From: Macrocybe gigantea | Taxonomy: Eukaryota; Basidiomycota; Agaricomycetes; Agaricales; Callistosporiaceae | Assembly: GCA_011319805.1 (NCBI GenBank) | Contig: SJRY01000249.1 | Span: forward strand, 174,455-238,454 | Direction: 5' to 3' | DNA length: 64,000 nt | In this document: one piece after another, positions 14,679-44,516 of the stretch | Layout of the letters: every line of letters starts with the position of its first letter | Numbering within the stretch: the first letter of the stretch is position 1 | Program-made: the position numbers and the translations under genes | Notes under the pieces: model-generated | Database searches by the model: none | What the model saw: the letters and a program-made list of their open reading frames with translations, nothing else | What the model was told of the DNA's origin: nothing

Positions 14679-14987
14679 TGTTGAAACTGGACCCAAGCTA
14701 GGAAGCTCTTGAGCTAGAACGGACTACTTACGTTAGTGGATTGTTAGAGGTTGGTCTTACTGCGTAGGCTTGGTTGAGTGAAACTCGGTTATATAATTGG
14801 CATACTACATAGGACATATTTATACATATCTAAGTGGCGCACAGACCATCAGGGTTGAGGGTGCGCTCACTAATCCTAGTGATAATAGTGCAGGGTATGA
14901 CTGAGCATACAAGCTGCGCTGTGAAGCCAAGAAAATTAGGGCAGAGGGAAAATGGTAGGGCGCAGGGTTGCTCCCACATTTTCAACA
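14679..14987 (-). repeat. 3' LTR of Copia copy B
   Basis: 309 bp, on the element strand from TGTTGAAAATG to GTTTCAACA. Nearly identical to 20159-20467. Confidence 0.97.
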
Positions 14988-24341: not shown

Positions 24342-27303
24342 CTACGGTTCTGTTCCCTCGTGCGTATTGAGCGGGCTGAGGTTCAGTGATCGTCCTGCTT
24401 TGTTCGAAAATGGATGCGGCGTTGCTCGTTTTCGTTTGGAGGAATTCAGACTTGAAGCTGAAGGGAGTACATCGCCGAGCCCTGGGTGCCCATCCGAAGG
24501 GGTAGACTTCGACCTTCGGTCACCACCGCTGCCACCTTGCAAACTACCAGAGAGCGGGCCCTCCGACACCAAGCGATTCTCCTCTTTTATTTCCTTTCGT
24601 GCTTGCACCGTCTTCAAGCGGAACCCTGTAGGCCGTGCTAGCGTCGTTAACGGGGGCCAGTCCTTTTCCAAAAGGGCCTCATTCATCAATTTCAGCATGG
24701 CTCGGGGCGTCAAGATCTTGTCGGCATCAGTGCCTTCTTCAGTGTTGGCACAGTCCTTGATCAGCATCCGTAAGCGACGCAGCATAGTGGTGAGTGGGAC
24801 GTTTCCAGTCAACACCAACGGATGTTTGTTGACCCATTCAAATTTGGTCGCATAGCGATGATCAGGAGAAGGATCGTCGGACAGCCACTTAGCTGCTTGG
24901 TCCCCTTTCCGATGTTCGTGTTTAGCGTGACGGAGGAGGCACTATATGAGGACCCAATACACCGATTCCAAGTCATGCCTCAGGCAATGATCTTCCTTCA
25001 CTTCGTTCAAGATACCGAGCGCCATGAATGGCCAAGCGCCCTTCAAATAGACGAAGATCAGCGACAGATATGCAATGTGTCTATATCTGAACGCACCGTC
25101 ATATCCTTCATTCCTTTGTCAATGTAATCCTTAAATTGTTCGGGCTCGGGATCCGCTACTGAGATGCGGACGGCAGCATAGTCAAAATCATGCAAAAAGC
25201 CACCGAATTTGTGCTCATGCAGCAACACGTTGCCGACGCTGACGTCCCTGTGAACGACTCCGCAATAATCGGCAATGGCGAGTCCTAGGGAGATCATGGG
25301 TACGCTCTGAAATTAAACGATATCCTTGGCACTCACCAATGACAACGTCACGTAATGCAGTAACGAGCTGCTTTGTACTCTCGAAATTCGTTATATGGCC
25401 ACCGACACAACCTGTCAACGTCCTAATGCGATCGCGATCGAAGTCCGAAGGATCTGTCGTCTGGCTAGCTGCCGGCCTAAGCCTGCCAGATTTCGTAACG
25501 AGGCCATACTGCTCCCCGCCACCATCGTATAAGGAGAGATTGTATGTTCCGACATAGTTAGTCAAACCTGAAACGTTGTCCTTAGGGATTAAATCGCCGA
25601 GCTCGTCTTGGATCATTTTCTGAACCCTTGAATCTTGTAAATGCGTCTCAATTCGTTCATAGTAATATCCTTCGTCGATACGGGCACGTTCCTGCCACGA
25701 ATCCTTCAAAACGTAGATCTGCTCGCGGAACTCGTCGTGATCGACAAGGACTTTGTAGACGGCCGAAGCGCGACTAAAGAGCCCGTTAGAGCTGTGGAGG
25801 GTTTCGAATGCAAAACATTCGACTGCGATGCCTTGGTTCGGAACGCGCGTGCCTATGAGAGAATTGATCAGTACGCCCTAAGCAGGCCACACACATGGGA
25901 CTCTCGTCAAACGATGGTGGGGTGGTATAGTGACGCTGTCACCATCGTAGGCTAAAACGGCACACAATAATCAGGATAGTCATTCAACGGAGTAGACGAC
26001 GCAAGTACCAGGAACGCTGCATGTGGCCAAGCGTCCTTCTGGCATCGCACAGGCCATCATCCAAAAAGCTCTCTTCTTGACCTCCCATCTTTGGTCCGTG
26101 AGTTGAGGCGCGAACTTCAAGAGCAGCCTAAACATCCTCTCAAATTCTTGGTCTGTGACCCGTCTGATGGTCGGATCCCAACCCACAACGGTGCTTGGAA
26201 TTGCTTTCCTAGGGTGCACGAGTCGCCAAAGGAATTTGCATAGTATCTGGGGCGACGAGACGTAATTGGCCGAGACAGAGGAGATGACACCCGCTCGGTC
26301 GAAACGAAAAAATGTGAAATGTCGGCCCGTATATTCCTATAATAAAGACGAAGCAGCTCTTGTGCTGCTTAAGCAAGTTAAGACCGTTCTTCTCCAACTG
26401 AACGCGAGTTTTCTGATGTTCGAAGCCATCCTTGCAGAGACCAGCCGAGTCAATAGGATCCTGTGTTTCTCTCAATTTAGCCTCCCAGACACATGCCACC
26501 TGATCCCAAACGCAGATAGGGCCGCTGCCAGCGCCCGGAAACCCATTGCATAGGTCGGGAAATGTGATATAGAAAGATTGGTGAACGGGTCTGAAACGAG
26601 TACGGTCTGTCTTTTCAAAATGAGGTTTCCGGTCATCAGGAAAGTCTTCGACCAGCTTTGTCAATCCAGTGATCTATATGCGCGAACGTAAGAATTGAAG
26701 GAATTGATAGCTGAGTAAACATGCACTCACGAGCGGAGTGTACATGGCTTTTTCCGATGACGGACCAGCTAGGGGAGCAAAAAACCTTGTTGTATCCATC
26801 GGAGAAGGGTCTGATAGGCCATCTTGACAATCAACGTACTCGGTTAAAAACTCGTCGATAGTAAGGTCGATTCGACAGTTGTGATTTGTTCGAAAATCAT
26901 TGTCGAATGCAATGACCGTCTTGACTGATTTTGTGGTGAGAGGAGTGCAACTTCTAAAATCGCTTTCGCTGCTCGCGTTATGCGATGCGGGCGTTTGCTT
27001 GACGGGCTGCGATGCAGGATTGGCAGGTGGTGCATGCAGAGAAGTGACCTGCCTCATCGGTAGCGGCTCTTCAGAATTCTGAGAGTCCACCTGCAGTGTC
27101 GATGTCATTGCGATATCTGCCTTGTCTGTTGGCTGAGGTTCTGAAGCTGCAGAGATAAACAGACGACGGCGCTTCTTGGGGCGGGTCGAGATGGTGGCAG
27201 TCGTGCCGACTGACCCAGTGGGTTGATAAAGCATATTAGAAATAGTTTCTTCAAGTTGCATCAGGGTAGGCTGCAGGCAGCCATGAACTTGAGCGATGGA
27301 CAA
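24342..27303 (-). pseudogene. FunK1-type protein kinase 1, with an in-frame stop
   Basis: A multi-exon minus-strand gene. The N-terminal region (27303 to about 26675) is polar with a basic KKRRR patch. The next exon holds the FunK1 segment LNLLKQHKSCFVFIIGIYGP. Then come FERMFRLLLKFAPQLTDQRW, VLKDSW, and the kinase core: catalytic loop VVHRDVSVGNVLLHE near 25260, GFLHDFDYA in place of DFG, and GAWPFMA after an intron near 25040. FunK1 proteins are fungus-specific serine/threonine kinases expanded in mushrooms; their roles are mostly unknown. In the C-lobe the expected VYWVLIW is cut by TAG at 24942-24944 (TGG to TAG); the paralogue at 41.4 kb keeps the tryptophan. Downstream sequence stays open to 24342. 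The stop suggests a recent pseudogene, unless a splice variant avoids it. Confidence 0.8.
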
Positions 27304-27471
27304 CGGAATAGAGCTAAGTTGAACGTTGAATTAGAAAAGGAAATGCTGGTGGGCCAGCACTGCGGTCACATGCAGATATGCATGTTGCATATTGGAACGA
27401 TGGGAGTTAAAGCCAAATTCCGCTATGCAAAAGGAGAATGATATTGAACGCGTGGGACATTGGCACGAAAC

Positions 27472-27486
27472 CACTGTAAAACCAAG
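27472..27486 (+). repeat. Left terminal inverted repeat of the CACTA-like element
   Basis: CACTGTAAAACCAAG, identical to the reverse complement of 40563-40577. It begins with the CACT typical of the superfamily. Confidence 0.82.
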
Positions 27487-27533
27487 CGCAGCGGAATTTA
27501 CGACCCCTAGGGGTCGGTTCACATTTTTCTTGA

Positions 27534-27778
27534 CATAAAATGGCTGATTTGAAATTCCAGACATTGGTATCATTAAGGGAGGGATAGAAATTCAGCTCAT
27601 TTGGGTCGTAAAGCAAGGACTGGAATGAAGTAGATATTTTCTTGACCATAAATGTAGCTGAAAATATGACCTGTGAATGCATAAGTTTTTCGCCCTCATC
27701 GAGTGTCGGTTTTCTTGCTAAAAGGGGTCTAATTCAAGGGTATGTTTTTTCCTGCCTCTGTAGGAACCAGTTTTCTTG
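27534..27778 (+). repeat. Subterminal TTTTCTTG repeats, left end
   Basis: TTTTCTTG occurs at 27535, 27637, 27710 and 27771 in the same orientation, each followed within a few bases by an A-rich stretch. Subterminal motifs in CACTA elements can be transposase-binding sites; that role is inferred here. Confidence 0.4.
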
Positions 27779-27808
27779 CAGAAATGCATCAATTTAGCGA
27801 TCAATTTT

Positions 27809-27909
27809 TTTCAACAACATCGTGGCATTTTTTTGCCGTCGCTCGTCTTCTTAGATACAACTAATTTCAACAACATCGTGGCCTTTTTTTTGCCATCGCT
27901 CGTCTTCTT
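27809..27909 (+). repeat. Tandem duplication, period 56 bp
   Basis: The 44-45-bp unit TTTCAACAACATCGTGGC to CTCGTCTTCTT is present at 27809-27852 and 27865-27909. The main differences are one base substitution and the length of a T run. It lies at the 3' end of the minus-strand hypothetical gene, where the second copy would encode the same peptide EDERWQKKGHDVVE. Confidence 0.75.
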
Positions 27910-29200
27910 GAGTGTCATAAAGCGAATACTTCTTCCTGAAATCAAGCTTGGCTGGAACGATAATACAGGCTGTGACCTGCATCGACTTTGCCCCAATATC
28001 AATATCGCCACAATGAGAAACAGCAAGTCTCTGTAATGAAGGTTCGTTCTGCCAGCCATCCTGGATGGCTTGCAAACGAGCTCCCAGATTTGGCAGAGTG
28101 AATTCGAGGGCTTTGCGTATGATTTCAGGCGAACACCTATGCTGTCAGGGTTTCAATATTTCAATCAGCAGGAGCTATTCCTGAATAGAAGCAACAATGC
28201 CCATTGCCGAGTGTGAAGGAAAATGAGAGCGAAAACCATGTTGAGAGCAAGTGGGCGGGGAAAAGAGCGATGAGAAGAAAAGTAATGGGACGTACCGAGG
28301 GCATGGACAAAGTGTTGAGAGCGATATGTTGCGGACAATGGTAGAAGGGCACCGAGTACTCTTCAATGCTGCTGGTGCTGCCGCTTCCAGCACTGTATTA
28401 TCCTGTCGATGTCAATTCCGAGATGTTCATCTCCAAAAAAGGCAGAGAATGTAGAGAAGACATCGATTAAGTCGGGCGCAAAGCCAAATCCTGCTGCAGC
28501 AGAGAAATTGCTGCGTTCCATGATTCCAGATGGGATGAAAACTTCGGGATGCTTCTGATGAATGAATTTGAGGCTGGTGAAGCCTTCCAAGTTGCCTGCA
28601 AAGGACATATCAGCCACGATGGTCATAAGCAGATAATGGGAGGGCACACTGTCGATAACCATGACCTTCACTGCAGCCTCCTCCTTACTCAACGTGTCAA
28701 GCACCATCTTCACGGCTTTGCCAAACACGACTCTGTTGGCACTGACTTCCTTCATTGACCAAATGTGTAGGTATGGCTGAGCCACCGCTTTGATGTTCTG
28801 ATACAAGGGCACATAATCGGGGTAACTGCATTTCTCAAAGTACTTGAATGCAGCCTTGACGGGGATAACATCATGCCCATGGATGCTCCCTTCAATCTCG
28901 GGATCGCCAGGTGCCATAGGATGCTTCGAGATGACTGGATGAAACGGAATCAGGATGGGGATGATGATAACAAATGCGGGATGAAAGCCTTACCAGCCAT
29001 GGCATTACTGTGATCGAGGATCTCACATATGCCTCCCCAGAGGGCAATCAGAGTCCTCGCCCTGGACGGTAATGACTTTGAGGTCATGACCATGGAGAGT
29101 GAAGCACGAGTGACTTGATGGCATTGGGGCTGAGGGCGAGCACACCAGGGTCAGGAGAGGATGGTTTCGTTTGGTCGATGAGTTACTGGGCAGTGAATAT
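27851..29200 (-). CDS. Hypothetical accessory gene in the CACTA-like element
   Basis: Not recognised. The clearest exon is 28363-28917, reading HDVIPVKAAFKYFEKCSYP, then MVLDTLSKEEAAVKVMVIDS and VFIPSGIMERSNFSAAAGFG. A second good exon runs from about 28133 to 27851 (CSPEIIRKALEFTLPNLGAR onward). Upstream pieces near 29040-29190 (SPDPGVLALSPNAIKS; RTLIALWGGICEILDHSNAM) look coding and splice toward 28920. There is no catalytic signature. It is transcribed in the same direction as Tnp2, on its downstream side. It could be a captured host gene or an element accessory protein. Exon joins are uncertain and frames may be damaged. Confidence 0.45.
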
Positions 29201-29249
29201 TAGTGAGCAAATGGACAGAGGCAGTGACAAATATGCACATTCATATTAA

Positions 29250-29907
29250 GCTTCATCCTTTCCTATCTCATGCCAACCATGCACTTCTACCTGAAAACTC
29301 TCTGTTTTCTTTCTTTCTCGCCAGATGCTTGTGTACAAGTATGAAAGGTTCTTGAAAATGCACTCATTGCGAACCGAAAAAGCATCGAAAACTGTTTTGG
29401 TGGACCTTCCACGGATGTGAATTGGGTTTTAATGTACGTTGCCTTTGCCTCCGCTGTGATACGTCAGTTAATTCAATTATCGTCAGGAGTCCATTACATA
29501 GATCCAAGTCCGACCACGTCTTGCATTGGACTTTCCAAGGATTTATCCAATGGATCAGTGGAGGCACTATTCATGCCTATCAGAATGGACAGAAAGCGAA
29601 ATGGTAGCCAAATGGGGAACGAGATAAGGGAAAGTCCACATTCAACATAAATGACCACTGTTTACTGCTATAATGCGAGGCGAAAGCCTTGTATTTTGCT
29701 CGATACCTGGAGGATCTAAGAAACCGATTAGCAGGCCAAGGGGAGTTACCATAATCCGATTTTTTTGACCGTTTCATCATGCCTCAAAGACAGGACATTG
29801 ACTATATGGTGTTTTATTCCCTAACGAATCTACAACTTTGAACCTAATGAGACTAGCAAAAGAATTAACCACTAGTCCAGATGATGATGAGAAATGCTTA
29901 CCAGCAA
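29250..29907. other. Gap between the hypothetical gene and Tnp2
   Basis: No supported gene. Small frames at 29364-29650 lack motifs. It probably contains the 3' end of the Tnp2 transcript and the promoter of the gene downstream. Confidence 0.35.
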
Positions 29908-32900
29908 TCATAAGGGTGTCTTGGTGCAGTCAATAATAGCCCAGTCATTACCAGTAGCGATACGACTGATGACACATTCCACACATTCCAGATCGACTAC
30001 CTGAGTTTCCCCAAAGTTGTGGAAGAATGGCATATCCAGGGCATTTATTTGTTTTATTTTGATACTTTTGATAACTGCAAGTAGAAGAGTGGTTGGTGAT
30101 GATATATTCCACACTGCGGTGGGTACAAGCTCTATGACCAATATGCATAAGAGTTGGCTGTAGAGGCTTCGAGCTTCAAACACTGGATCCATGTTGTGGC
30201 GATGACTGTGAATATCCACAGCTTGCATGTACTATGATAGTAGTGTATTAGTGAGCAGAAAGGTAGAGTCAAATAGTCATACTTGGACAAAAGATGCATC
30301 CCGGTTGTTGTCCCCAAAGTTCACGAGCTCCCGGGCGTGTATGAGATCACCACTACCTGAACACCTCATTTTCCTGTACTGTGTCATGACTGAGGTGATG
30401 GTGAACTGTTTACAAGTGAAGGCGATATTCTTTCCGAAGCGCATCACCAAATGTGCACACACTTTGGAATGGAGGCCTGAAGATAGTTGTGCTTGAGATT
30501 TTGGCATCATGAGCATTATGTTCGGATCTAAGGATGTCAGACTTATCTAGACTTTGAGGAGAATACTGTGATTTACATCCTTCAAAGACACACTTTTCCA
30601 CGTCACTCCTCGGGACTCGAAGCGTCAGTTCAGAGTGGACATGATAAATGTTCTTGATCTGTGTCAATTGGGCATCAGCGGTAACATAGTTGTTCATCGA
30701 AACGTATGGGTTCTTTCTACTTTTAATAGTCGGAGGAAGGCGACCACAGTAGCATTCCATAAAGAATACCCAGGTAGCCCATACAGGGCCCATAGATCTG
30801 ATTCCATCCACGACATGGAGGAGGGCGTGAATGGTAAGAGGGCAGGCAGACAGTCTCTCTGGCTCGTGACAGTAGTACAATCTAAAATTATATGTAAGAA
30901 GGGTGATCCAGGGAATTTTGAGAATGTTTGCTCACTTTTCATAGTCAAGAACCCATAATTTGAAGCCTTTGTCTATCTCCTCAAGCTCTTCAGCAGAAAT
31001 CTCGAATTGCAGGCACAGGTTGAGTAATTTGACGAGCTTGATAAAATGATGATAAAACCTCTCATCCTTGAAACGCCAGGACAGCAATATGGGAGCGATG
31101 AATAGCATCCAAATTGACGTTGATTCGGCAGTGAGTTGTCCAGGATTTTTCTCGACATTCAGAACCTGTGTCCCAAACTCTGACGGAATAGTTTTCCCTG
31201 CTCTGGCTGACACGACACCGATCCCTTCCCATACTGACTTCTCCAGTATGTAACCTTGGTTTTCGTGATCGAGTTTCTTGTATTGGCCTGTCCAAAAGAG
31301 AATAAGGTTGGGGATTAGGTTCTCCCAGATAAGATGCATGAAGTTGAAAGGGAATGACGTCGGGAAGGAAAGTGAGCTCAAACAGCTCAGAAGGGGGATG
31401 CCTTTGATACCGTACTGCTTCGAAAGCCTTTCATAGTCAGCCATGGTGCTAGCGAACTGGACTTCTTGGGCCTGCTCCATGAAGCGTTTGTGAGTCCTGA
31501 GTGGTAGATTAGACGGGCCGTAATTGCCAATGGTTGCACCTGGGATGTTCACTTGATGGAGGGGTATGTAAAGTGCATTGCTACCACACGATGCAGTGCT
31601 GATTCCTTGAATTTCACATATACGGCACGGAAAGAGAGCATTTGGACCTTTCATGCGCATAATCAAAGCGATCACGAGGATATCCCCTAAGCCACTAAGG
31701 AGGTAGGAATGCAAGAGAAAAAATTGTTCTGAGAGGGCATCAAAGGCTTTGACACCAATGGCCAATTGAATCATCTCCAGACAGAAAGGCCATACGAATG
31801 AATCTGGGTCCTGTGGCTTCTTGGGAATCACACCAAGGGAGATGATGTGCTCTTGGTGGGTTCATATATCTGGCGGAAGGTTGTAATTGACGAGAATAAG
31901 AGGCCATGCATTCTTGGAGTGCCTCTTGAACAACGAAAAGCCATCCGTAGCAAACCCAAGCACAATGTCATGAGGATCGGAAAAGTGGAAGAAATCCAGG
32001 GTCTCATCACCAACAGTGACGAGTGTTTTGCAGAGCATCTTATAGTGAGAGCCATCAAAGATGTCAGTAATACTACCTTCTTTGTGTTCATATTCATAAT
32101 GGCGATATCGCATTTTTATCGCATATTCAGGATTGGCGATCAGGGCTTGGAGAGGCGGAATGAGGGGTATGTACTCGAAATAACTTCGAGGTTTCCCTGC
32201 ATGATCAAATCGAGGTTCATTGCAGAATGGACATTGATCCAAGTCTTCGTATGGTCCGGTGTAACAAATGCAAGAAGCGATGCAACAATCGTAGCGAATG
32301 GATTGGAAGCCAGACAGAAATTGTACTCGTCGGCACGTCTTCTTCAATGACGGAATGGGTGACGAAGGATCCACGAAAGTTAACAACTCGAAAACTTCAT
32401 CTGTGAGGTGTCGTTTGACCTTGAGGGTATATGCACGAAGGATGAGAAGGTCGTCTGCAGAAAGTCTCTTCGATCCTACCGAGTAAAATGAGAATGATGA
32501 TGATAACGCCTGTCCCAATACATGCCTAGCGCATTAATCTCGGCTTCAAATCCTTCTCCAAGTAGATCCCACAATGATATTCCAGCATGATTCAGATTCG
32601 AGGAGAAGAGCTCGACCGGTTCTTCTTCCAGCAGCTCATCGGTCGGCCAGTCTTCGTCTTCTTCATGCTGTGCATCTTCTTCATCTCCTTCTTCCTCTGA
32701 GCTAACTGCTTTGGGGACTCTGTTGTTTGGATTGCCCCAACACTGCTGGATAAGTTGGGATGCCTGTGTTGCAATTCTTTGGGATCTGTGCGAAGATACA
32801 AGTATGTGATAATCAGCTTGATGTGGCATGGGTTCTTTGGTATTAAGTCCAGAATCTGAAGCTTGACCCGCATGATTGATGGTAGGTTCAAAATCGGGAG

Positions 32901-33240
32901 TGGGAATCTCATTGGAATAGTTTTCAGGCGGGAAATCAAGAGGCTCGAGAGGGGGCTGAACACAATGCCTTTTCTTTGCCTTTTTGCATGCTTCGCTGAC
33001 TGTCAAAGAGTGCTCGTTTGCCAAGTTGGAGCCCCGCACATGGTCACCTTCCCTCAACCATCTCGCACTTTGAAGAGCTGCGGCGGCGATCGACTTGGGG
33101 CCCTTTCCTGCAAGATGTCGAAGTATGGATTTTGCAGATAGTTCCAGCTTACATCCACATTCACATGGGCGTTTCCACAGTTGCTCAGCCCTTCGCTGGC
33201 GCTGGACTTTGTTCTGAGGTTTTCGAGTGGTGTGGGGCAT
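29908..33240 (-). pseudogene. Tnp2-type (CACTA) transposase with a nonsense codon
   Basis: Starts at ATG 33240 with a basic, cysteine-rich N-terminus (RPCECGCKLELSAKSILRHL). An acidic linker follows, then the Tnp2 core: ASCICYTGPYEDLDQCPFC, PLIPPLQALIANP, DIVLGFATDGFSLFKR near 31950, VIPKKPQDPDSFVWPF, NALFPCRICEI, FPFNFMHLIWEN near 31340, and YYCHEPERLSACPLTIHALL with ATWVFFMECYCGRL after an intron near 30890. C-terminal exons continue to HNFGETQVVDLECVECVISR and end near 29908. Tnp2 cuts and rejoins the element ends. A TGA at 31862-31864 follows NYNLPPDI; the next residues (THQEHIISLGVIP) remain in frame, so one arginine CGA has probably become TGA. Apart from that stop the gene looks coherent. 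Confidence 0.85.
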
Positions 33241-33416
33241 GCAGATCAGGCGGGACAGAAGAGAATTTACAATATATTAACAAGAGACCTAATTCGGTGT
33301 CATTGCGGAATGACTGATTGGACTGGAATAGAACACACCTAAAAACTGGCTTGTAAAAATCAGGAGGGTTGGACGGAATAACGGCGAAAGGGGCCCAGGA
33401 ATCCAGATCAATAGGT

Positions 33417-33796
33417 AGTCAAGGACGATGCATCTAATCGACTTGTGGATGGACTGTGCATCTAATCCACAGAGTGAAATTCAGCAGGACAGTTCGTCTA
33501 TGCTGCAAGGAGAATCCATCCAAACGGGCAATATAGAGAGCTTGTCACCAGGGACATTGCTAGAAGGCGGGAAGAACTGAAAAGTCAGCATGAAAATGTC
33601 AACTCCAAAAATGAAATGCACCGGGCTTGAGCACGTTGACAAAAGAATGTCACAGTGAATCCGGAAGGACAGCGGTATGGAAAATGGGACCAGCAGAATG
33701 TCGGGAAGTCAAGGACAATGCGTCTATCAACTGGGTGGATGGACTGTACATCTAATCCATGCACTGGCAACCAGCAGGACATTGCATCTATGCTGG
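33417..33796 (-). repeat. Hairpin-motif array, Tnp2 side (six copies)
   Basis: Core GGACNNTGCATCTA on the plus strand (TAGATGCANNGTCC when read with Tnp2) at 33423, 33451, 33487, 33713, 33741 and 33777. Spacing is 28 then 36 in both triplets, because a 290-bp unit is duplicated. Flanks pair: TGTGGAT/ATCCACA around the second, CAGCA/TGCTG around the third, TGGAT/ATCCA around the fifth, CCAGCA/TGCTGG around the sixth, with weaker AGTC/GACT at the first; the fourth pairs poorly. The array lies 180-550 bp upstream of the Tnp2 ATG, so it may be leader or promoter. Confidence 0.88.
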
Positions 33797-34263
33797 CGCC
33801 AGCGAAATCCTAAAGGCATTGACGATCAATTGGGATGGCAGCTTATCGCAGGTGAGGGGCGGGCAGTGGGCTTGGTGCTTGGGATAGCGGCTTGTCGCTG
33901 GCAACCTTGGTGAGGGGAGCAGGAGCAGGGAGCTCGGTGAGGGGGAGCAGAAGAGGGGAGAGGGGAAGGGAAGCGGGAGAAGGGAAGTGGGAGTGTGATG
34001 AGTGGTGAGGGCGAGCGGTGGACTTGGAGTTTCCCACTTTGCACTTGGGCCATGCATGGGACTGAGGTCACATGATCTCTTGTGCCCTCCTTGTCTCCAT
34101 TCCGCACAACGAGCTCAACCCAAAGCTCACTATCACACACCATCTCACGCTTTCTCTCGTCCCTTCTCGCTCATCCCGCGCTCTCGGATCGTTGCTGCTT
34201 CACCCATACCGGTACCACAGGTGAGTTCTTTTCCGCCTCTCCCAGTTCCCTCCCCCTCCAGAG
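33797..34263. promoter_or_regulatory. Putative bidirectional promoter at the element centre
   Basis: Lies between two divergent genes and between the two halves of the hairpin array. The plus strand is G-rich from about 33845 to 34010 and C-rich from about 34080 to 34260, so each outgoing transcript would begin in a pyrimidine-rich tract, as is common in fungal core promoters. No clear TATA box was found. Promoter function is inferred from layout and composition. Confidence 0.5.
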
Positions 34264-34923
34264 CACGAGCTTAGATGCAATGTCCAGCTCGTGTGAGGTT
34301 AGATGCACTGTCCGCCTCCGAGGAGTTAGACGCAATGTCCCTCCTCGTCTGCTATTCTGATGGATTCCTTCCAGCACAGTACCTTGCATCTGCGCTGCAG
34401 TTGAACCATGTCATCGAGGGCTCGTCCAGAGGAACTGCCCTCCCAAATGCTGGTCTTCTAAGGCAATGCTTGCAGTGGTGCATATTTCCATTGCTGTGGT
34501 AGGAGGGGTCCCTTTCTTACTCGGTATGTGTATTTTGTCACTTTCCTAAACCTTTTCAATAAAGATTGACTTTTCACGTGTTCTTAGTTTGAATGCTTGC
34601 TTGAAATCGCCCAAACCTCATCTACAGTATTGGACACATCTCTCACATCTGACCACTCCAGATCCATTCGATCGCTCCGAACCTCTCCCCTCGGAAGTAT
34701 CTAAGACGGTCCTGAATTGTCTCCCTGCAGTGCATATGATGATTATGCCTTGTGTTCATTAGTTCCTGAAGATTCTTAGCTATTTTAACATCCTAGCCAG
34801 ACACTGCTTCCACCAGGTGTGCATTCTCCCCATCTCTTAACTTGAGCTAGATGCACTGTCCACTCGAGCAGGGCTATAGACGTACTGTCTGCCCTCAAGG
34901 AGTTAGACACAACATCCCTCCTT
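34264..34923 (+). repeat. Hairpin-motif array, right side (six copies)
   Basis: Core TAGATGCANTGTCC or close variants at 34272, 34300, 34327, 34848, 34877 and 34904, in two triplets with 27-29-bp steps. Each sits in a self-complementary frame with its own stem: CACGAGCT/AGCTCGTG, GAGGT/GCCTC, CGAGGAG/CTCCTCG, CTTGAG/CTCGAG, AGGGC/GCCCT and AAGGAG/CTCCTT. The array ends 58 bp before the ATG at 34982 and has the same orientation relative to transcription as the Tnp2-side array. Confidence 0.9.
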
Positions 34924-34981
34924 TCCTCTTCTGTGCCCAATCCTTTGCAAGCCCACTTACATTACCCGAAGACCCCCCATA

Positions 34982-37170
34982 ATGTCTTACAACTTGACCA
35001 TCGATGACCTCGATTTGACTTTGCTCCTGCACAACCCCAGAAGTAGGTATCACGATTACTTTCGTTGGGCATTTGGCTAACTTATTTTAACTCAGAAAAA
35101 CTGACTTATACTGACGGTGTGGTCATTGCCAAAATTGGCCCATTTATCTGCACATCGCCCAATGCAACGTTCATTCCGAAACCACCCTTCAGCATCAGAA
35201 ACGTTCACCTGCGCTCTGACCTTCACTATGGCAATGATGACCCGGTGCACTGGCCCCAACCCTTCATCGACACATATCCGTACTTAGCATGCATCCCTCA
35301 CAGACCAGCCAATCCCAATGATCCCTTGGCACTCATGTGGTATGTGCCAGATGCCTGCAATTTCGTCCCTTCCTCGGATAGCCTGGTTGGTGGCCTTGGC
35401 AAACTATGCCCCGATAAGACTCAGCAAATTATGTCGATGTGCCGTGATCTTCGCAAGAGGGTCACTGACTATAAGGCGTCAACTGAATTTCCAGAACCCC
35501 ACGTCCTACACCTCGACAAAGCCATGCACCATGGCTACATTCGCCTCGACGTCTTGCCATCCACACTGACCGAAATGAAGTTTGGTGTCAGCGAAGTCCA
35601 GCGGTACTATCTCGAAATCGTAGGGCTTCTGGATTATTTGCAGATCTTCAAGCCTCGCATTTTGGGTATTCAACCCCTTCTGACAAGCTCCACCCATGTA
35701 TCGGTGCATTTACGACCAGCCCCCGCTTCGTCGAAGAATTATTCACTGCCGGTATTCCTGTTTGGTTCCTCTGCGAGTTTGAGGTCTTTAAAGCCTCGAT
35801 GGATAAAATCAATGTCCTAACTGTTGTCACCCCTCAACCACCACAGCTCCCAATCTGCCTCGATGAACATGATCCGCCTTTCCCCATCATATACTCAGGT
35901 GGTGCCAACAGTGCCCTCAAGCAGACCGCGATTCATCGGTATTCTAGAACGTGGCTTGTATACTGTGATCCATTTGGCGAAACACCCGAATCTGTTGACC
36001 CCCTCAATCTTCCACGCCCTGTCACAACCGAAAGCATCATGATTCCAATGACTGAATTGATGCAACGTCAACCCTTGTTGCCCCCACAGTGGCAATCGAC
36101 GTCACAGCATGGCTCCCGCTCATCAACGGCAACACCCCAGCCATCTGCTGCATCTTCAAGCACCTCGAAGCAAAAGCAGACTGGTAAGACTTGTTTCCTC
36201 CCCGGTTCTTAGCAAGAAGCTCGTATTTCTTCAAGCTCCACCTAAACACACCGGTCGCAACAAATATCTGCCCCTCGATAGTCTTCTAGCCCCGTTCTCC
36301 ATTCCCGTCTGGTCGGATGCCTTGTGCTCTGTGGACCAAGCATACGAAAACCTCGTCGAACAAGAAAAGTCCAACCCACACTATGGACATTACACGTTCT
36401 CTGATCCCGGTCTCTTCACGTCACCTGCAAGAGACGACAAAAGGGCAGCTTATTTCGAATGCTGGCTTCGGATCCGCCAAGGCTGGCTATGGCGGGTCAT
36501 GAATGATTCCTCATGTGCCATGGCATCGCAACAATGGCATAATTTCCTTGCTGTGGGATTTGTAGATGAGGGCAGCAGTGGTGCAAAGCAGTCGAAGACC
36601 AGAGAGGAACTCCAAGCTGCCATGTTGCCAAATCACAATAGGTTTCCAGACCTCTCCCCTCCAAGAAGCAGTCTCGGCATGCCTGTCACCTGGAACAACA
36701 GAGAATATGTACCAGGAAGCATTCTTTCTGACACCACCTACCGCGAGATTCTCTGGGAGTTGTTCGAACTCAACTTCCGTTACGACCTCCTTGCCCTGGA
36801 CCGACGAGCTTCAATTCAAAGTGCCAATCCCGACGAACTCTTCAAGTGTCAAGAGCTTCTTCTTTCGTGTTTCACCATCGATGACGATGACCATGTCCTG
36901 TCACACGTGAAGCTGCCGTCCAAGAACAAGGGCCTAGCCACAGCAGATTGGAAGGTCCGCTTTCCTTTTATTCTGTCGCTCGTCCATCTTTTGGGCTCAT
37001 GGAGAGGAGAACACCCAGAGGCATTCAAACTTGCATCCTCTCCTGTTGAAACCATCATGCAGGAAGACACTCGTCAGCTCGAAGAGGCTGCTGCGAACTT
37101 TTTCACGCAGCAATTCTACAACTATTTTGGTCATGCCGCAATGATTCCGCATCACCTTTTTCATGTATAG
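34982..37170 (+). CDS. Large accessory protein of the CACTA-like element, unknown function
   Basis: ATG 34982 opens MSYNLTIDDLDLTLLLHNPR. A 53-base intron (35043-35095) joins in phase to KKLTYTDGVVIAKIGPFICT. The frame continues to about 35660, where LQIFKPRILG should run on in the next frame as PSDKLHPCIGAFTTSPRFVE; one base seems missing at 35664-35667. The second part reads through SMDKINVLTVVTP and PFPIIYSGGANSALKQTAIH, has an intron near 36184-36212, and ends with a well-kept domain (WLRIRQGWLWRVMNDSSCAM; YREILWELFELNFRYDLLAL; FFTQQFYNYFGHAAM). The type is unknown to me. Divergent pairing with Tnp2 through a shared motif array suggests an element-encoded partner, perhaps DNA- or RNA-binding, but no domain proves that. 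Confidence 0.6.
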
Positions 37171-37329
37171 TACGACTATGACATGAAACAATTGTAATGA
37201 CACGTTTCCCCCCCCTCTCTAAAAAAAATTCACCATTGAATTGTTGCCCGATATGTTTACTATCAATGGAATCTATTGAAACAGATAAGTAAATCAGTCT
37301 TATTCTTTGATGTGAACAAAGCACTCACA
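37171..37329. other. Convergent 3' ends
   Basis: Short gap where the plus-strand accessory gene and the minus-strand small gene converge. No further feature seen. Confidence 0.4.
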
Positions 37330-37913
37330 TTCTCTTTTCCAATCTTGTAGATCTTCTTTGGCATGGCTTCTGTGTCCTCGCCTTCTTCGACAAGCTTCCG
37401 CTTCTTCGACTCTTGGAAAATAATTAGTCTTCTGCTTTAAATTCCATATTCATAATGACTTACTCATGCCAATTCCAGGTGAAAATTGATTCACATGACG
37501 ACTGGAGCCCAATACAGTCTCTTCGACCCCGACAGCAGCATCAACGCATCCGGTTACCTCGGTTTGAATGCTGGCATCAACCAAAGCCTCTGTTTGTGTA
37601 AAGGCATGATGGTAGGCGATGAAGCGCAAGAAGCACCCGCTATCAAAATCAACTGGTGACAACGACCTCACGCTGTCATTGTCGCTTCTGAAGTCCAAGT
37701 ACTTGGCCATCATCTCCGTCGTAACACTCAAATCCTTGCCATCATCATCGCTAATGGTGAGGTCGATTCCGCTTGTCTCTGAAACATTCTCCCCATCGAG
37801 CTCGGAACTGACATTAGCGCTGCCAGGGTTGCCTTCGATGGCAAGCTCGACCTCATTAAGAGACGAGGCAGACTCTGATTGAGAATCAGGGATAACTTCG
37901 GGTTCCTAGGAAG
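37330..37913 (-). CDS. Small acidic hypothetical protein in the CACTA-like element
   Basis: An exon opening after an acceptor near 37914 reads EPEVIPDSQSESASSLNEVE and then ETSGIDLTISDDDGKDLS, continues with YLDFRSDNDSVRSLSP and FIAYHHAFTQTEALVDASIQ, and ends at a GT donor near 37464. After a 52-base intron the frame continues SKKRKLVEEGEDTEAMPKK. It is acidic and serine-rich with a candidate nuclear localisation signal (KKRK). The start exon lies upstream and is not resolved. No family recognised; the open frame over two exons is the evidence that it is coding. Confidence 0.45.
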
Positions 37914-38658
37914 TCAAATGTTAGTCAAAGACATGGAGCGTGATGGAGACAACAAACCTCGACAAGAGAGTGACGTCACAATGGATGGTTGCAGGCAATC
38001 GGACGCAGCATGTACGGGGTGCGTGAATCAGAGTAGGACATCTTGGATTGGTGAGTGTCTCGGGGTGGATCCTTTTATTTTAAGAGTCTTACTGTTTGCA
38101 CCATTAGCCCTGGAACAATTATTTGAAAGTTCTGTTCTGACCGCTTGCATCCTTTTCTGGTGACTTTTGCCCATTCACAAAGCGGCATTGATAATGATCT
38201 GACCCTGCTAAGGAGTGTGCTGCGCTATTCAGTGCAACTGATATCTTTTTCTTGTGCGGAATATTCAAGGTCCTTACCACCCTAATTCCCAAGCCAAGAT
38301 TCTTCTATTTGGGACCCTCGCATCATACATACAAGTCACTTATGCTGCTCCATTCACCTTTTTCAAGCCATGATATTACACATCCCTGCTCACAGGCTAT
38401 TTTTGAAACCTTTCCATGCATTCAATCCTATGCGAGCATGGCCTCTCTGGGGTTCGTGTGTATGCACATGATTCCTAATGTTTAGTTCAGGCACGTCATG
38501 TATTCATGGTCGCCGCCGCTCGACAGTTTTCATCTGTTCTCAATGGGTGCAAGAATCGTGAACATCCGCTAAGTCCAGAACTGTTTAAATACTTGACCTC
38601 CATTGCTGAATTACAAACACCTAACAGTCCGAGCTTCGAAACGTGCTTGTCTCTTACC

Positions 38659-39923
38659 ATGGTAACTTCTCCGGCTCGTGCTCCCGCTGCTTCTCGATCA
38701 ATAAAGCCCACTTCATCCATCTCCAAAAAGAACTGCACCATGGTGAAGGGTGGTTCTGAGGCTGCTTTGCGTGCTCTCAAGAAAGCTAAGAAAACTGCCC
38801 TCATCGACAAGACCAATGCTGGAGGCACCAAGGTCTTTGTTTAGTATTCGACTCCCTACTCATCACTAACCAAATATATATATAGACCCCACACTCCACA
38901 GGCCTGCCATCGAGCGGCTTGTCCAAGACCCTTCAGTGTCAAGGTGGAAAGGTGGCCTCAGTGAGAGCCCCCACATCAGAGCTGACCACTTCCACTCCAG
39001 ATCCCACTTCGCGCGGACAATCCGTGGCAGACATGGAACAAGAGATTGCCAGAGCCCCTGCATCAGAGCCGAGCCACTCGACTACGGGCACCGTTTCGTG
39101 CGGACGATCCGCGACGGATATGGAACAAGAGATTGCCAAACTGAGAGGTAAGTGATCATGTATACTTTATTATTCCAGCACCTTCTGACTTGCAGCCATG
39201 CCTCACAGCAGAAAATGACAAGCTTAAAAAGGTGAGCAGTGCTCAAATGTGCCGATCTGTGCACCAAGCTATTCCATGGCCCCGAAAAATCAGAGGAAAC
39301 AATTTGCAAGAACTTATGAATCTTGGTCACGACAAGGCATGGTATAATCGAATTAGAGTAAGCTCCTGCTTGAATGACATTCTACTGAGCTTATCCCTTT
39401 AAAAGCATCTCGTGCGTTCTGCTATGGAAAGGGCTGGAATAGATCCTGCTGTTGGTTGGAAAGAGCAAGATCATGATGTTGTGGGTCATGTCATGGCTTA
39501 TGTGAGTTAATTCCACTTTATGCATACTTGCTCATTATCATTTTCCATCAGGTGTGCTCGGAGGAACCTGCTCTCGAAATGTTCGCTGCCAAATGGCCCA
39601 TCAAAGAAATGATCAAGGCTATTCTCAAGAACAAGCACGGATATGGGCAACAAGTTAATGATGACATGAAGACTGCAGATGGTGGTGGTGACAATGACTT
39701 TGACATCAACCTATGGGATTCCGGTGATGGCAGCATGAGTTTCGACAACGATATCACTGGTGACGTTGGCTCAGGCTTCGGAAGTGATGCCGAAAAGGAT
39801 AGCAATGAAGAGAGTGGGGTTGATGGAGATGAAGGTAGCCAGGAAGGTGGCAACGAGAGCGGTGCCAGCAGAGAGTGTGATGGGACTGATGAAGAACAAG
39901 ACAAGGTCGAGGGCGATGAGTAA
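38659..39923 (+). CDS. Hypothetical acidic-tailed protein in the CACTA-like element
   Basis: Probable ATG at 38659 (MVTSPARAPAASRSIKPTSS), then a lysine-rich stretch ALRALKKAKKTALIDK. The following exon (about 38886-39148) contains an internal duplication ending twice in MEQEIAR/K. Later exons read LMNLGHDKAWYNRIR and MERAGIDPAVGWKEQDHDVV, and the last exon (39552-39923) starts VCSEEPALEMFAAKWPIKEM and ends in a long acidic, glycine-rich tail. No known domain recognised. It is the rightmost gene of the element, and a nuclear role is only a guess from composition. Exon borders are approximate. Confidence 0.5.
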
Positions 39924-40562
39924 TCGGCATCTCCAGTGCAAGATATCCTCCATAATTGTCCTTTTATCCCCCTCTCTTCATCTTCATAACTGCTTCTTTT
40001 CTGCCGAATTTTAGATACATAGTGCAATATTTGGGTCACCAATATCCTTTCCTTTTTGTACATAATTCTGAGCCTTTCATGCTGAATGGCGCGGTCTTTA
40101 ATTGCACCTCTTTGATGATGAATAACTGATCCTCCTATTGAATTAGTGTCTCTCTGTTATGTGGCGAAAAATTCTGATCTTTAATTGTACCTCTTTGAAG
40201 ATGAATAATTGATGCTTGCATTGAATTGATGTTTCTCCATTATGTAGTGAAAAATCCTGTTCCTTGAGGGCAAATAATATCTGATACTAATCTGCAGTAT
40301 TAATGCTGCAAAGCTATGGTTTAAGCCTCATGTTGACACACCCCAAAGTAGTGGAAATAAGCTCTGGAATTTCAGCCATTTTTTGTTCCTTTTCCACTAC
40401 TTGAAATCTGACCCAAAGCATGTATAATTACAAGCATGTGGTGCACATATTGTACTACAATGGTCATGAAATTCTGCCACCAACATATGTTTTTTTCCTA
40501 CCCATATCAGCTGAAAAAAAACCCTTTTCCACCGAAAAGCACAGGTCGGAATTTCCTCCACC
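39924..40562. other. Right subterminal region of the CACTA-like element
   Basis: AT-rich non-coding sequence containing the 83-bp tandem repeat and leading to the terminal inverted repeat. Confidence 0.5.
40095..40260 (+). repeat. Tandem repeat, two units of 83 bp
   Basis: Units 40095-40177 and 40178-40260 both start TCTTTAATTG and share GATGAATAA, ATTGAATT and GAAAAAT in register. Similarity is roughly 80 percent. Non-coding, inside the right end of the CACTA-like element. Confidence 0.75.
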
Positions 40563-40577
40563 CTTGGTTTTACAGTG
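40563..40577 (-). repeat. Right terminal inverted repeat of the CACTA-like element
   Basis: Exact reverse complement of 27472-27486 over 15 bp, with patchy similarity for a further 25 bp inward. Confidence 0.82.
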
Positions 40578-42033
40578 AATGGAAGACCGCATATATCGGG
40601 TGAAGAAACTGAGCCACCTCTGGAAGTTGTTCTTGTTAAATCACCCTGTGACAGGTTACCAATGTATTAATTTTACATCCATGCCAGTGACTTTCACTCA
40701 TGCCGCATGTCATTGAAAAACAAGAAATGAGATGCGTAATACTTTATAAATTAATAAGTGTTATGGAGGTGACTCTTGCTCTATTTCTCTATCCTCTTCA
40801 TGCACATTGAGTGGAGAGGGGTTGAATGTGTGCCCTACTTTGTTGGAAGAATTGGGGTGAGCTGATCATTTCCGTTTGCTAGATGCGAAATTTGGAGGTG
40901 CGGCAGGAGCAGACGGAGTACCAGAATCGTGCTGTTTTCCATCAGACGGCACAGGTTCAGATTGTTGGCCAGGATTGTATGAGCTCGCTCCAATCTGCAA
41001 AGCAGACTGCAAGGCCTTTGAAGTGCAGCTATTTCCGCCATTCTCTGGTTGAACCGTCTTCTGCGTCTGTGCCGTGACGCCAAACGGAATTTTGCATTGC
41101 ATGCTCATGGTGTTGCAGGGCCAATTTGACTCAGCCTGGGACAAGGCTTTGTTCATAGCTTCCAACACCTTCCGCAGAGTGAGCTCCATCGCCGGATTAT
41201 TACTTTTTTGTGCCTGAAAGTTGGATTCGACCAAAGCCCGAAGGTTTTCTGATAAATTGGCGAGAGCGGTGTCTCCAGAGATTGGCAAGGCCTGGGCCTG
41301 ATCAACAACCCATGCTAATTTGAATTGCCAACGATACTGAGGAGGCAGATCAAATAGCCACTGGGCAGCATGGTTACCCTTTCGATGACCAGAAAGGCAC
41401 CATATCAAAACCCAATAGATAGATTCCAAGTCATGCCGAAGATGGTGATCCTCCTTTTCATTGTCTAAGATGTCCATTGCCATGAAGGGCCAAGTTCCCT
41501 AGGAGGGCATGAGATATATTTTGACCAGGGCAGAGAAACATACTGTTTTGTGCTTAAGCTTTCGAGGATGTGGATTCATAGTAGAAATGCAGGCCGGACT
41601 GTAGTCGAAATCATGCAAAAAACCTCCTGGCTTGCATTGGTGTAGCAGGATGTTGCCGACACTAACATCACCATGAATTACTCCAGAATGATGTGCAACA
41701 GCCAGCCCTATAACAAGTCTGAATGTTTGCACAAATAACTGATTCGGACGGGACTTACCAATCACAATGTTGTGCAAAGCATAAACCAACTGTTTTGTAT
41801 ATTTGAAACTTGTTAGGTCTTGGCCGGCACAGACTGACAAGGTCCTGATTCCATGGCAGTTGAGGTCTGATGGATTGCATGCCTTGACAGTTGCTGGTTC
41901 AACACAGCCTATTTTTGTAGGAGGGCTATGCTCCTCTGTATCGCCACTAGATAAAGAAAGTAGAGCAGGGACATTGGGCTCTAGAGACAGATCACCGAAT
42001 TCGTCTTGTATTATCTTTTGAATACCCGGTAAT

Positions 42034-42353
42034 TGTTAGGCTAGACGAATCTCAGAAGGACTCGGGCAGACTAAGTGCAAGAGTGGTCTTGAGATGATGG
42101 CAAAAGGAATATTAAGCCTAGCGTTACTGGTACATCTGGGAGTCCTTATATACACTACAGTACTCGAGCATGGACCATGGGCTGCGCAATGCTGTGGACT
42201 GCGGATGAGTAAGACTGGAAGGAGATGACTCAGAATGACTAGGGAAGTGGGATGACTCGATGGCTGCGTGCTGCACAGCATGATGGGGGAGATAGGGGAT
42301 GTGGGAAAGATAAGATAGGAAAATGAATGGTCCTTTGAGCGACGTCTGTAACA
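42034..42353 (-). repeat. 3' LTR of chromovirus copy 1
   Basis: 320 bp, TGTTAGGCTAGAC to GTCTGTAACA on the plus strand, homologous to 48138-48457 and 54338-54657. Confidence 0.93.
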
Positions 42354-42513
42354 TCACTCTCTCTGTAGATTCGCGTCCTCGCGAAGAACCTTAGTCCAGC
42401 TGTCCCCACCCGGTATTGGTCTCCCAGGCAGTCGCAGCATGCGGGGCCCATGTATGAATGAGCTCTTCATTATAGGCGCAGATGTGATGGAGTGTGGTGG
42501 CGAGGAGTTTAAG

Positions 42514-42789
42514 TCACCGGTTTTCTGTGCGAAGCATTTCCATTGCCTCGCGAAGCGCGATACATTCAGCTGCAGTGGGGCCGGTCCCATCAGGGGTTCG
42601 CCCGGTCCAGAGGTGTGTGCAGACGGTCATAACATAGCGCATATATGCGCCAAGTGTGATGGCAAGGGGGTCCATGTAGTCGCTAGCATTGAGAATCCTT
42701 GCCAGGTTCTCGAGGTCGCTTGGGCGGTTGGGGGTAGGTGTGCGGCTGCCCTCACTGCTGTCGATGCTGATGGGGGCATTGGTGGTCAT
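42514..42789 (-). pseudogene. Third ORF of chromovirus copy 1, interrupted
   Basis: Starts MTTNAPISIDSSEGS, like the intact 132-residue ORF of copy 2, and is cut by TGA after LRTENR, where copy 2 has another arginine codon. Downstream sequence still matches. Function unknown. Confidence 0.75.
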
Positions 42790-44516
42790 GAAGTGCGATT
42801 TTTGGTCTTCTTCCCTCTTGTCGTGATCCTTTTATCCTGGTTCGCAGTCTTCTTTAGGAAGTGGTCTAGAGCTTGCTGCGCATTCCCCAGTTCCTTCTCT
42901 TTGATCCATGTGTTCTCTTCATGTCCGTATCCTTTCCATTTGACCAGGAATAGCGTCCCCCTCCCTTGTTTCTTCCTTTTTAGGATCTCTTCTATCTCGT
43001 ACTCTTCTTCATCATTTATGATTTCAGGGGGTGGTGGTGATGGTCGCTCTTGTATCTTGAAACGGGGTCCTTTGTAAGGCATGAGCAGTGTTTCATTGAA
43101 CATGGGGTGTATCAGCTGCCATGATGCTGGGAGTTCCAGGCGATATGCCGAGGCTCCTTTCTTTTCAACCACCTTGAATGGTCCGTATCGGAGTGCCGAT
43201 AACTTCTTTGATGGTCGATTGACTGTGATATTGGTGGCTTCTAGCCATACTCTATCTCCTTTCTTGTATTCACGGGCGGGTTTTCGTCTCGCATCATAAT
43301 TGTCTTTGGCTCGTGTTTGTGCATATTGCAGCGCGGCATTTGCTTCCTTTCGTATTTGGTTCATTCTTTTGACGAAGTCTTTTGCTGCAGGGTTATTCCC
43401 TTCTGTCGTCTGTGGCTCTCCCTTCCAGGGGTGCATTCCATAGTTGAGGTAGAATGGTGTCTCCTTCATTCCCTGGTGTGCTTTGTCATTGTATTGGTAC
43501 TCTGCGATTGCTATCCATTCTGCCCAATCGTCCTGTAAGTTGTTTGTGAAGCTTCTGAGGAAGGCTTCTGTTTCTTGGTGGGATCGCTCCGCCTGTCCAT
43601 CTGTCTGTGGGTGATAGGCCATTGATAGATTTTGCTTTGTTCCGAGTAATTTTAGAAGTGCTGTCATGAATCGTGCTGTGAACTGGGGTCCTCGATCACT
43701 GATGATCTTTCATGGGATTCTGTGAAGCTGCCACACATTGTCTCGATATAGTCATGCAAGACATTCTGCTGTGAGTTTGGTCTTTGTGGGAACTAGGTGG
43801 ATCATCTTGGTTAGGCAGTCTGTGACTGTGGCGATGGCATTAAAGCCATTAGAGCTAGATAGCGGTCCTATGAGATCTACTCTGATATCTTCCCATGGTT
43901 GCTGTGGGACTTCGTGCGGGTGCAGGGGTGCGTGTTTCTTTTGTCGGATGATTTTGTTTCGCTGACATGTTTCGCATCCATTGACATACTTCTTGATGTC
44001 TGTTAGCATTGATGGCCACCAATAGGTGTGGCTTATGAGCTCGTGCATGCGGTATTGCCCTGGGTGTCCTCCGATGGGTGTGTTGTGGTGTTCAAACATG
44101 ATGTTTTCCTTCAGTTTGTTGTCTGGAGGAATGTAGATTTTTCCTCCTATGTATACGATGTGGTCGTCTTCTGTGAACCAGTGTGGTTTTTCCTTCAGTT
44201 CTGTTGTTACGATTGTCTCCCTTCATGTGCATTGTCGAATTTGTTCTATCCTTGAGGATTCGATCATCGTGATTCCTCTTGTTTGTATTGCTTCATTATT
44301 TTCTGCTTCTTCTTTTCGTGGGTGTTCGTCCTCGAACATCATAAATTCGAAGTCTCATTCATTATTCTCTTCCAGATGTCGAATGAATGCTGCTTCTTTG
44401 ATCATTTGTATGTCGTCCTTCTCTGCTAGGTTTTCTTCATATCCTGCCATCCGTGACAGGACATCCGCTTTTCCATTCGCCTTTTCTGGTACGTGTCGTA
44501 GTTCGTAGTCGTATTC
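42786..44516 (-). pseudogene. Pol fragment (RNase H end, integrase, chromodomain) of chromovirus copy 1
   Basis: Collinear with copy 2 pol. Visible are YELRHVPEKANGKADVLSRM at the truncated start, the zinc-binding region with HTYWWPSM and CETCQRNK, integrase core pieces HPQTDGQAERSH and YGPFKVVEKKG, then the chromodomain to a stop at 42786. TGA codons replace CGA in NERDFE, TRRE and the segment before KIISDRGPQF. A chimeric open frame (44355-44720) fuses kinase-derived residues to the pol end; it is a by-product of the junction. Confidence 0.88.

Follow-up and report, generated by a model that had tools for sequence, protein, structure and literature searches.

The window, by which we mean the whole 64-kb stretch of DNA analysed (C248:174455-238454, part of a 41.2-Mb assembly and fungal by its gene content), contains a degenerate, 13.1-kb copy of a CACTA/EnSpm-type DNA transposon at 27472..40577. 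Its ends, at which homology to a second copy on contig C169 also stops, carry a 15-bp terminal inverted repeat of the CAC..GTG kind, CACTGTAAAACCAAG, at 27472..27486 (forward strand) and 40563..40577 (reverse strand), with CACTG instead of the CACTA of plants. The two copies are 83% identical across their main 8.7-kb block, and each is flanked by a 3-bp target site duplication, ATG/ATG around the C169 copy and AAC/AAT, with one mismatch, around the window copy. A profile search placed Tnp2 (PF02992) above the curated cut-off at C248:206049-206435 and C169:14779-15162; the Plavaka transposase domain PF18759 was absent from both contigs among the 45 matches listed in the genome. The host is a transposon of a known kind, a CACTA/EnSpm element, since it has the terminal inverted repeats, the flanking triplets and a Tnp2 gene, and its inverted repeats and transposase place it in the wider group of Plavaka/EnSpm (CMCT) fungal transposons. 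With regard to its surroundings, pieces of fungal protein-kinase genes bracket the transposon on the reverse strand at 24342-27330 and 40866-45909 (PF17667; two of the three matching pieces above cut-off), and the right-hand kinase gene is apparently split by a Ty3-type retroelement with integrase zinc-binding, Tf2-1 SH3 and chromo domains (approximately 42786-44222). Further to the left, a 1649-aa open frame (14982-19931, reverse strand) belongs to a copia-type retrotransposon and encodes gag, integrase and reverse transcriptase domains.

Two divergent genes, both with interrupted frames and approximate ends, make up the interior of the element. The Tnp2-like transposase gene (Transposase_21; 30410..33240, reverse strand) is identified by its PF02992 match and was read as separate pieces, and the conserved partner gene (34982..37170, forward strand) has a start codon read from the sequence. 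The partner gene has no Pfam match, either in the window copy or in its homologue from family F5 (see below), and domain and structure-based searches found no RNA-binding domain in its protein, the predicted model of which was poor (mean pLDDT 59.6) and matched nothing informative. The F5 partner protein has 197 database relatives at E <= 1e-5, and two of those listed are named Phlegmacium proteins.

Between these genes lie twelve copies of a conserved core, six on each side and oriented with the outgoing gene, as a sequence-only reading of this DNA had claimed; all of them were located, with core starts at 33423, 33451, 33487, 33713, 33741 and 33777 on the reverse strand and at 34272, 34300, 34327, 34848, 34877 and 34904 on the forward strand. 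Each core is part of a hairpin, written here as outer stem, bulge, inner stem, loop, inner stem, 3' base or bases and outer stem. On the Tnp2 side (reverse strand) these are hairpin 1 (AGTCGA tta GAT-GCATC-GTC c TTGACT; 33417..33443), hairpin 2 (TGTGGAT ta GAT-GCACA-GTC c ATCCACA; 33444..33471), hairpin 3 (CAGCA ta GAC-GAACT-GTC c TGCTG; 33482..33505), hairpin 4 (AGTTGA ta GAC-GCATT-GTC c TTGACT; 33707..33732), hairpin 5 (TGGAT ta GAT-GTACA-GTC c ATCCA; 33736..33759) and hairpin 6 (GCCAGCA ta GAT-GCAAT-GTC c TGCTGGT; 33770..33797). On the partner side (forward strand) they are hairpin 7 (GCACGAGCT ta GAT-GCAAT-GTC c AGCTCGTGT; 34263..34294), hairpin 8 (GAGGT ta GAT-GCACT-GTC c GCCTC; 34295..34318), hairpin 9 (CGAGGAG tta GAC-GCAAT-GTC c CTCCTCG; 34319..34347), hairpin 10 (CTTGAG cta GAT-GCACT-GTC ca CTCGAG; 34841..34868), hairpin 11 (AGGGC tata GAC-GTACT-GTC t GCCCT; 34870..34895) and hairpin 12 (AAGGAG tta GAC-ACAAC-ATC c CTCCTT; 34897..34923), in which the inner stem is partly worn (GAC/ATC). 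The units are grouped as triplets of 83-91 nt, two to the left and two to the right of a central spacer, with every unit facing away from it.

The claim that the cores are enclosed by complementary stems of varying sequence holds for all twelve units, which have an outer stem of 5-9 bp, counting G-U, that differs in sequence between unit classes; eleven score at least 4 with a bulge of up to 3 nt, and the unit at 34877 (AGGGC/GCCCT) requires a 4-nt bulge. The 5' bulge (TA, TTA, CTA or TATA) is faced by one or two 3' bases, the 3-bp inner stem is either GAC/GTC or the G-U-containing GAT/GTC, and the 5-nt loop is GCANT with variants including GAACT and GTACT. What had been described as a 14-nt loop is hence a conserved core but not a plain loop, as it forms a small hairpin of its own, made up of the UA bulge, the inner stem (GAY/GUC) and the loop proper. 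An Rfam search of 33000-35200 with E up to 5 returned only Cgb105, which lies off the hairpins (34463-34567) and whose 20.8 bits fall short of its gathering score of 163. The motif TAGAYGCANTGTCC, with Y permitted at position 5 and up to two mismatches, recovers 11 of the cores, the twelfth being more worn, and these are its 11 matches in the whole 64 kb, all inside a 1.5-kb stretch, against 2.4 expected by chance and a highest count of 7 in 100 shuffles. The pattern as first described, at three mismatches, gives an unremarkable 28 matches against 19.8 expected, a count reached by 7 of 100 shuffles, so that the core alone constitutes moderate evidence.

Genome searches that used the partner and Tnp2 proteins as queries identified relatives whose hairpins have the same architecture, with triplets on both sides, but other loops (UYUGC, UUCGU, GYGUU, UUGAN); their partner proteins are 35-51% identical to that of the window over the matched stretches. 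Across the loci of these relatives, TAGAYGCANTGTCC at up to two mismatches has one lone match, in L055. Besides the window's own family (F1), F2 (C35, C275, C244) has a TA bulge and GAC-TYTGC-GTC (ATC in C244), F3 (C145, C256, C75, C3 and the partner side of C259) has mostly TTCGT-type loops on GAC/GTC or GTT, AAC/GTT and CAC/GTG inner stems, and F4 (C294, C332, C331) has a one-T bulge and GYGTT-type loops. F5 (C48, C59, C146, C231, C124) also has a one-T bulge, with partner-side loops TTGAA, ATGTT and TTGAC, and F6 (C257) has degenerate hairpins, including one GGC-TTGAA-GCC unit. Hairpins are found on both sides in 13 of the 14 elements readable on both sides (for C331, five listed units), C257 having remnants only. 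At L074, L079, L080 and L082, loci that may stop short of the promoter, there was no repeated hairpin loop of this kind. Additionally, a 96% identical Tnp2 copy (C3:1-2970) meets the contig end on its upstream side, so the centre of that element is unreadable.

The other-side triplet of F5 was predicted to lie inverted a few hundred bases off and was then found, with all three hairpins in 1 kb of C231: AGCAACCC t GAC-TTGAT-GTC GGGTTGCT, AGGACA t GAC-TTGAC-GTC TGTCCT and GATTGAA t GAC-TGGAC-GTC TTCGATC. No other hairpins of the set fold as stably as those of F5 (mean z -3.5). The family is apparently young, because its partner proteins in C48, C59, C146 and C231 are identical over 360 residues, which suggests recent movement; no match to PF02992, PF18759 or PF18758 was listed beside these four partner genes. 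All six units of C244 close their inner stem with a C-A pair, two of the six have outer stems that score below 4, and the hairpins of this copy show no gain in stability over shuffled sequences (mean z 0.03). What persists from family to family is the geometry and the NAC/GTN-type inner stem; the loops change, and a constant loop with a varying stem, as initially proposed, is therefore roughly right inside one element and wrong between families. The loops are, moreover, not strictly private to a family, since those of F5 vary (TTGAA, ATGTT, TTGAC, TTGAT, TGGAC), TTGAA occurs in both F5 and F6, and the F2 loop TCTGC is found in one F3 unit.

The sequence-only reading had named two outcomes that would speak against selection for a hairpin, namely flanking complementarity at the level expected by chance and relatives that keep the core without the pairing. 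With regard to the first, the 3' flanks were re-dealt among units in 20,000 rounds, allowing bulges of 0-3 and 0-2 nt. Pairing in the 12 window units scored 65.4 against a permutation mean of 31.0 and a maximum of 52.4 (0/20,000), in C169 64.1 against a mean of 29.1 (0/20,000), and in the 32 units of the window, C35, C256 and C294 combined 174.6 against a mean of 73.4 and a maximum of 103.1 (0/20,000). In this combined set 30 of the 32 units score at least 4, compared with a permutation mean of 4.2 and a maximum of 12, and in a second set (C169, C244, C75 and C332) 28 of 32 do so, compared with a mean of 4.6 and a maximum of 13 (0/20,000). Small sets are weaker when taken singly, the observed value being reached by 57 of 20,000 permutations in C35, 96 in C244, 39 in C294 and 4 in C256. 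Excluded beforehand were one loose match in C75 (1896) and another three in L042; F6 (C257) was in no permutation set, and the scan of F3 picked up 8 of the 9 units per copy, with one minus-side unit missed each time. In a fixed register, the 12 units of C294 and C231 score 56 of 60, G-U counting half, against a mean of 25.6 and a maximum of 45.5 (0/20,000), and the corresponding counts are 64/20,000 for C35 and 49/20,000 for C244. Register 2/1 of F1 gives 0/20,000 in each copy, and register 3/1 is not significant (4483 and 4214) because it is used by some units only. Chance thus does not explain the flanking complementarity. The relatives present the reverse of the second outcome, as they keep the pairing and have lost the core, and the proposed selection for a hairpin survives both comparisons.

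The paired positions also covary. In the alignment of the 12 units of C294 and C231, 91.7% of cells are paired, compared with 60.8% in shuffled and 29-52% in slid alignments, with a covariation score of 0.814 (0.191 shuffled, 0.084-0.155 slid) and 44 cells changed on both sides (15.7 shuffled). Among the 23 distinct units of F1, 81.3% of cells are paired, compared with 62.5% shuffled and 29-42% slid, the score is 0.550 (0.217 shuffled, 0.077-0.160 slid) and 57 cells are changed on both sides (22.5 shuffled). The slid control weighs more than the shuffles, because the rows of the alignments share descent. Counted by pairs that show any two-sided change, neither set exceeds its shuffles (8 against 7.1 for C294 and C231, 7 against 6.9 for F1). 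Across units, the inner stems vary by paired changes (GAC/GTC, AAC/GTT, CAC/GTG and one GGC/GCC). The C169 copy has the same 12 units as the window; stem differences within F1 are mostly transitions that keep the pair via G-U (10 G-U cells against 3 A-C and 1 other), and a few break it. Two-sided Watson-Crick changes between orthologous units occur in two outer columns only, the covariation being mostly between units of one element and between families. Furthermore, the hairpins are more conserved than the remaining aligned sequence in all four element pairs compared, with identities of 90 versus 80% for the window and C169, 75 versus 38% for C35 and C244 (the most diverged pair compared), 93 versus 82% for C256 and C75, and 98 versus 93% for the partner side of C231 and C124. 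Pairing, covariation, arrangement and conservation across families are all features of these hairpins.

On the partner side, the first triplet may lie in a leader intron. A candidate intron at 34221..34374 on the forward strand (GTGAGT ... CTGAT ... CCAG) encloses hairpins 7-9, with a GTRAGY 53 nt upstream of its first inner stem and CTRAY and CCAG past its last stem. In the seven F1, F2, F3 and F5 copies examined, the first inner stem on the partner side is preceded at 49-63 nt by the GTRAGY splice-donor consensus; close upstream of the Tnp2-side triplets there is none (F3 alone has one, at -188), and none is found in F4 either. A branch-site-like CTAAC or CTGAT, plus CCAG, directly follows the first F1 triplet; CTRAY soon after the triplet occurs there and in F4 only, and is absent within 250 nt past the triplet in C35, C145, C256 and F5. 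In F5 there is no AG for 836 nt past the triplet, and the 860-nt interval tested contains 3, each of them at its end, whereas 2,000 base shuffles averaged 17.2 and never had fewer than 7; such a stretch resembles the region without AG that precedes a remote 3' splice site. This pyrimidine-rich stretch (L049:440-1276, in C231) extends from the F5 triplet to the partner gene and is kept in the diverged C124 (L050).

As a tentative explanation, somewhat short of an even chance, we propose that the triplets in both outgoing pre-mRNAs are binding sites on nascent RNA, perhaps for a protein of the element, that coordinate the two genes. We infer that the triplets are transcribed, that they have a ligand and that its binding has an effect. 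They would be transcribed in the 5' part of both pre-mRNAs, that of Tnp2 (where identified) and that of the partner, each unit folding into an outer stem of free sequence, a 5' bulge of 1-4 nt that mostly contains U, a 3-bp stem of the NAC/GUN type and a 5-nt loop that is often, though not always, characteristic of the family. A protein could then recognise bulge, inner stem and loop together on the nascent RNA; the shared shape and the tendency of the loop to differ by family suggest that this reader is element-encoded. Binding would set the expression of both genes jointly, through transcription, leader-intron splicing or export, and if the partner-side triplets are indeed intronic, these nuclear steps are likelier targets than translation. 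Three hairpins close together may allow cooperative binding, and differences in the loop may provide some specificity between element families. It is possible, if rather doubtful, that eukaryotic DNA transposons have on this basis a nascent-RNA circuit of their own, in which an element protein reads triplets of pentaloop hairpins in both pre-mRNAs and couples transposase and partner, and in which the loop evolves together with its reader, so that related elements sharing a nucleus cross-regulate less than they self-regulate. The suggestion in the sequence-only reading that the hairpins serve to package the transcripts found no support; a CACTA element is not known to have an RNA intermediate that needs packaging.

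The reader might instead belong to the host, an RNA-binding or RNA-processing factor acting on stability, export, splicing or the evasion of silencing. One such factor would suit a geometry common to all families, the loops common to several families or variable inside F5, and the position of the partner-side triplets in a predicted leader intron in several families; we nevertheless consider it rather unlikely, since loops that are mostly alike within an element and unlike between families suit an element-specific reader better.

It is likewise unlikely, in our estimate a little more so, that the hairpins act as DNA, in the form of central cruciforms or single-stranded hairpins bound by a transposon protein, as a transposition enhancer or for replication-linked recognition. 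Models for this are attC and the ends of IS200/IS605, recombination sites for tyrosine or HUH enzymes that are read by shape, and which also have a variable stem sequence and an extrahelical base; the single-T bulges of F4 and F5 resemble IS608 hairpins in particular. The arrangement is, in addition, symmetric around the element centre, and taken together the two strands differ little in how well they fold, with folding energy favouring sense in F3 and F5, antisense in C169 and C244, and neither elsewhere. However, the present element is of the CACTA type, and the window arrays are central, approximately 5.7-5.9 kb from the ends where CACTA transposase acts. No single-strand-processing domain of a known kind (tyrosine recombinase, HUH) was found by Pfam in the pieces searched, those of the window element and the F5 partner, and on both sides the bulge and the feature order run with the outgoing gene, which is a point for RNA. 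The sense stems contain 25 G-U against 11 A-C column states, the direction that RNA predicts, an excess that is partly expected because background differences already favour C/T over A/G (95 versus 68). RNA is thus favoured over single-stranded DNA by position, and by sequence just slightly.

Repeated motifs are also known from plant CACTA elements (En/Spm, Tgm, Tgmt*), where short subterminal repeats can be drawn as stem-loops and differ between families (PMC2613891). The hairpins share with them a repeated short motif in stem-loop form and the family differences; in plants the repeated motif itself forms the stem and adjoins the termini, whereas here it is the inner stem and loop that recur, between outer stems of free sequence, and the arrays lie centrally, in threes and oriented by transcript. 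Such elements bear repeated TNPA sites (PMC2613891), and the inner core is a dyad, so the cores might be ordinary double-stranded protein sites (GAC-N5-GTC half-sites) for a TNPA-like dimer with irrelevant outer stems. This is improbable, as it offers no reason for the covarying outer pairs and the sites are not subterminal; no exact 9-mer reaches three occurrences in the terminal 700 bp on either side of the window copy, a test of exact repeats that shorter or inexact ones may escape. The weakest alternative, that the complementarity is a mutational by-product in duplicated repeats and serves no purpose as a hairpin, is very improbable, for although some units are clearly duplication-derived and template-switching mutation is known to perfect imperfect palindromes, the bulge, the 3-bp inner stem and the 5-nt loop are all kept, the hairpins outlast their surroundings in each pair compared, and number, orientation and spacing recur across families.

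Considered as RNA, the units fit a TAR-type hairpin in shape, with placement in a leader predicted. HIV-1 TAR RNA is a leader hairpin with a 5' pyrimidine-containing bulge, a short upper stem and an apical loop, a shape that the present units share, but here there are at least three copies per predicted leader, two divergent leaders, and another bulge and loop. The boxB hairpin of phage lambda nut, a pentaloop hairpin with a GNRNA-type loop, is present once per leader in two divergent transcripts and has one element-encoded reader. The present hairpins are similarly small, with pentaloops, upstream of two divergent genes; they differ in their triplets, their added bulge, their loops (GCANT, TYTGC, TTCGT, GYGTT and TTGAN do not fit a GNRNA-like pentaloop) and their residence in a eukaryotic DNA transposon. 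TAR, boxB, attC and IS608 are, by this comparison, resemblances and not memberships. The open-access literature searched yielded no description of such hairpin arrays, and the system appears new as far as found, within a known kind of transposon. In the available part of a study on Plavaka/EnSpm elements (PMC12730594), the words 'hairpin', 'stem-loop' and 'subterminal' do not occur, and 'palindromic' occurs once, about the edges of TET/JBP genes.

Cut-and-paste transposons are usually viewed as recognised through duplex DNA at their ends, with their RNA a plain message. Covarying hairpin arrays under selection, set ahead of both genes throughout a group of CACTA elements, would show that such an element also uses structured nucleic acid internally, and would offer a direct handle on the way it restrains or coordinates itself. 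Since loops differ naturally between families, reader-site specificity is testable at once. With regard to this variation, the inner stem and loop of F2 (GACTNTGCGTC) approximate the reverse complement of those of F1 (GACGCANTGTC), with the TA bulge on the unchanged side.
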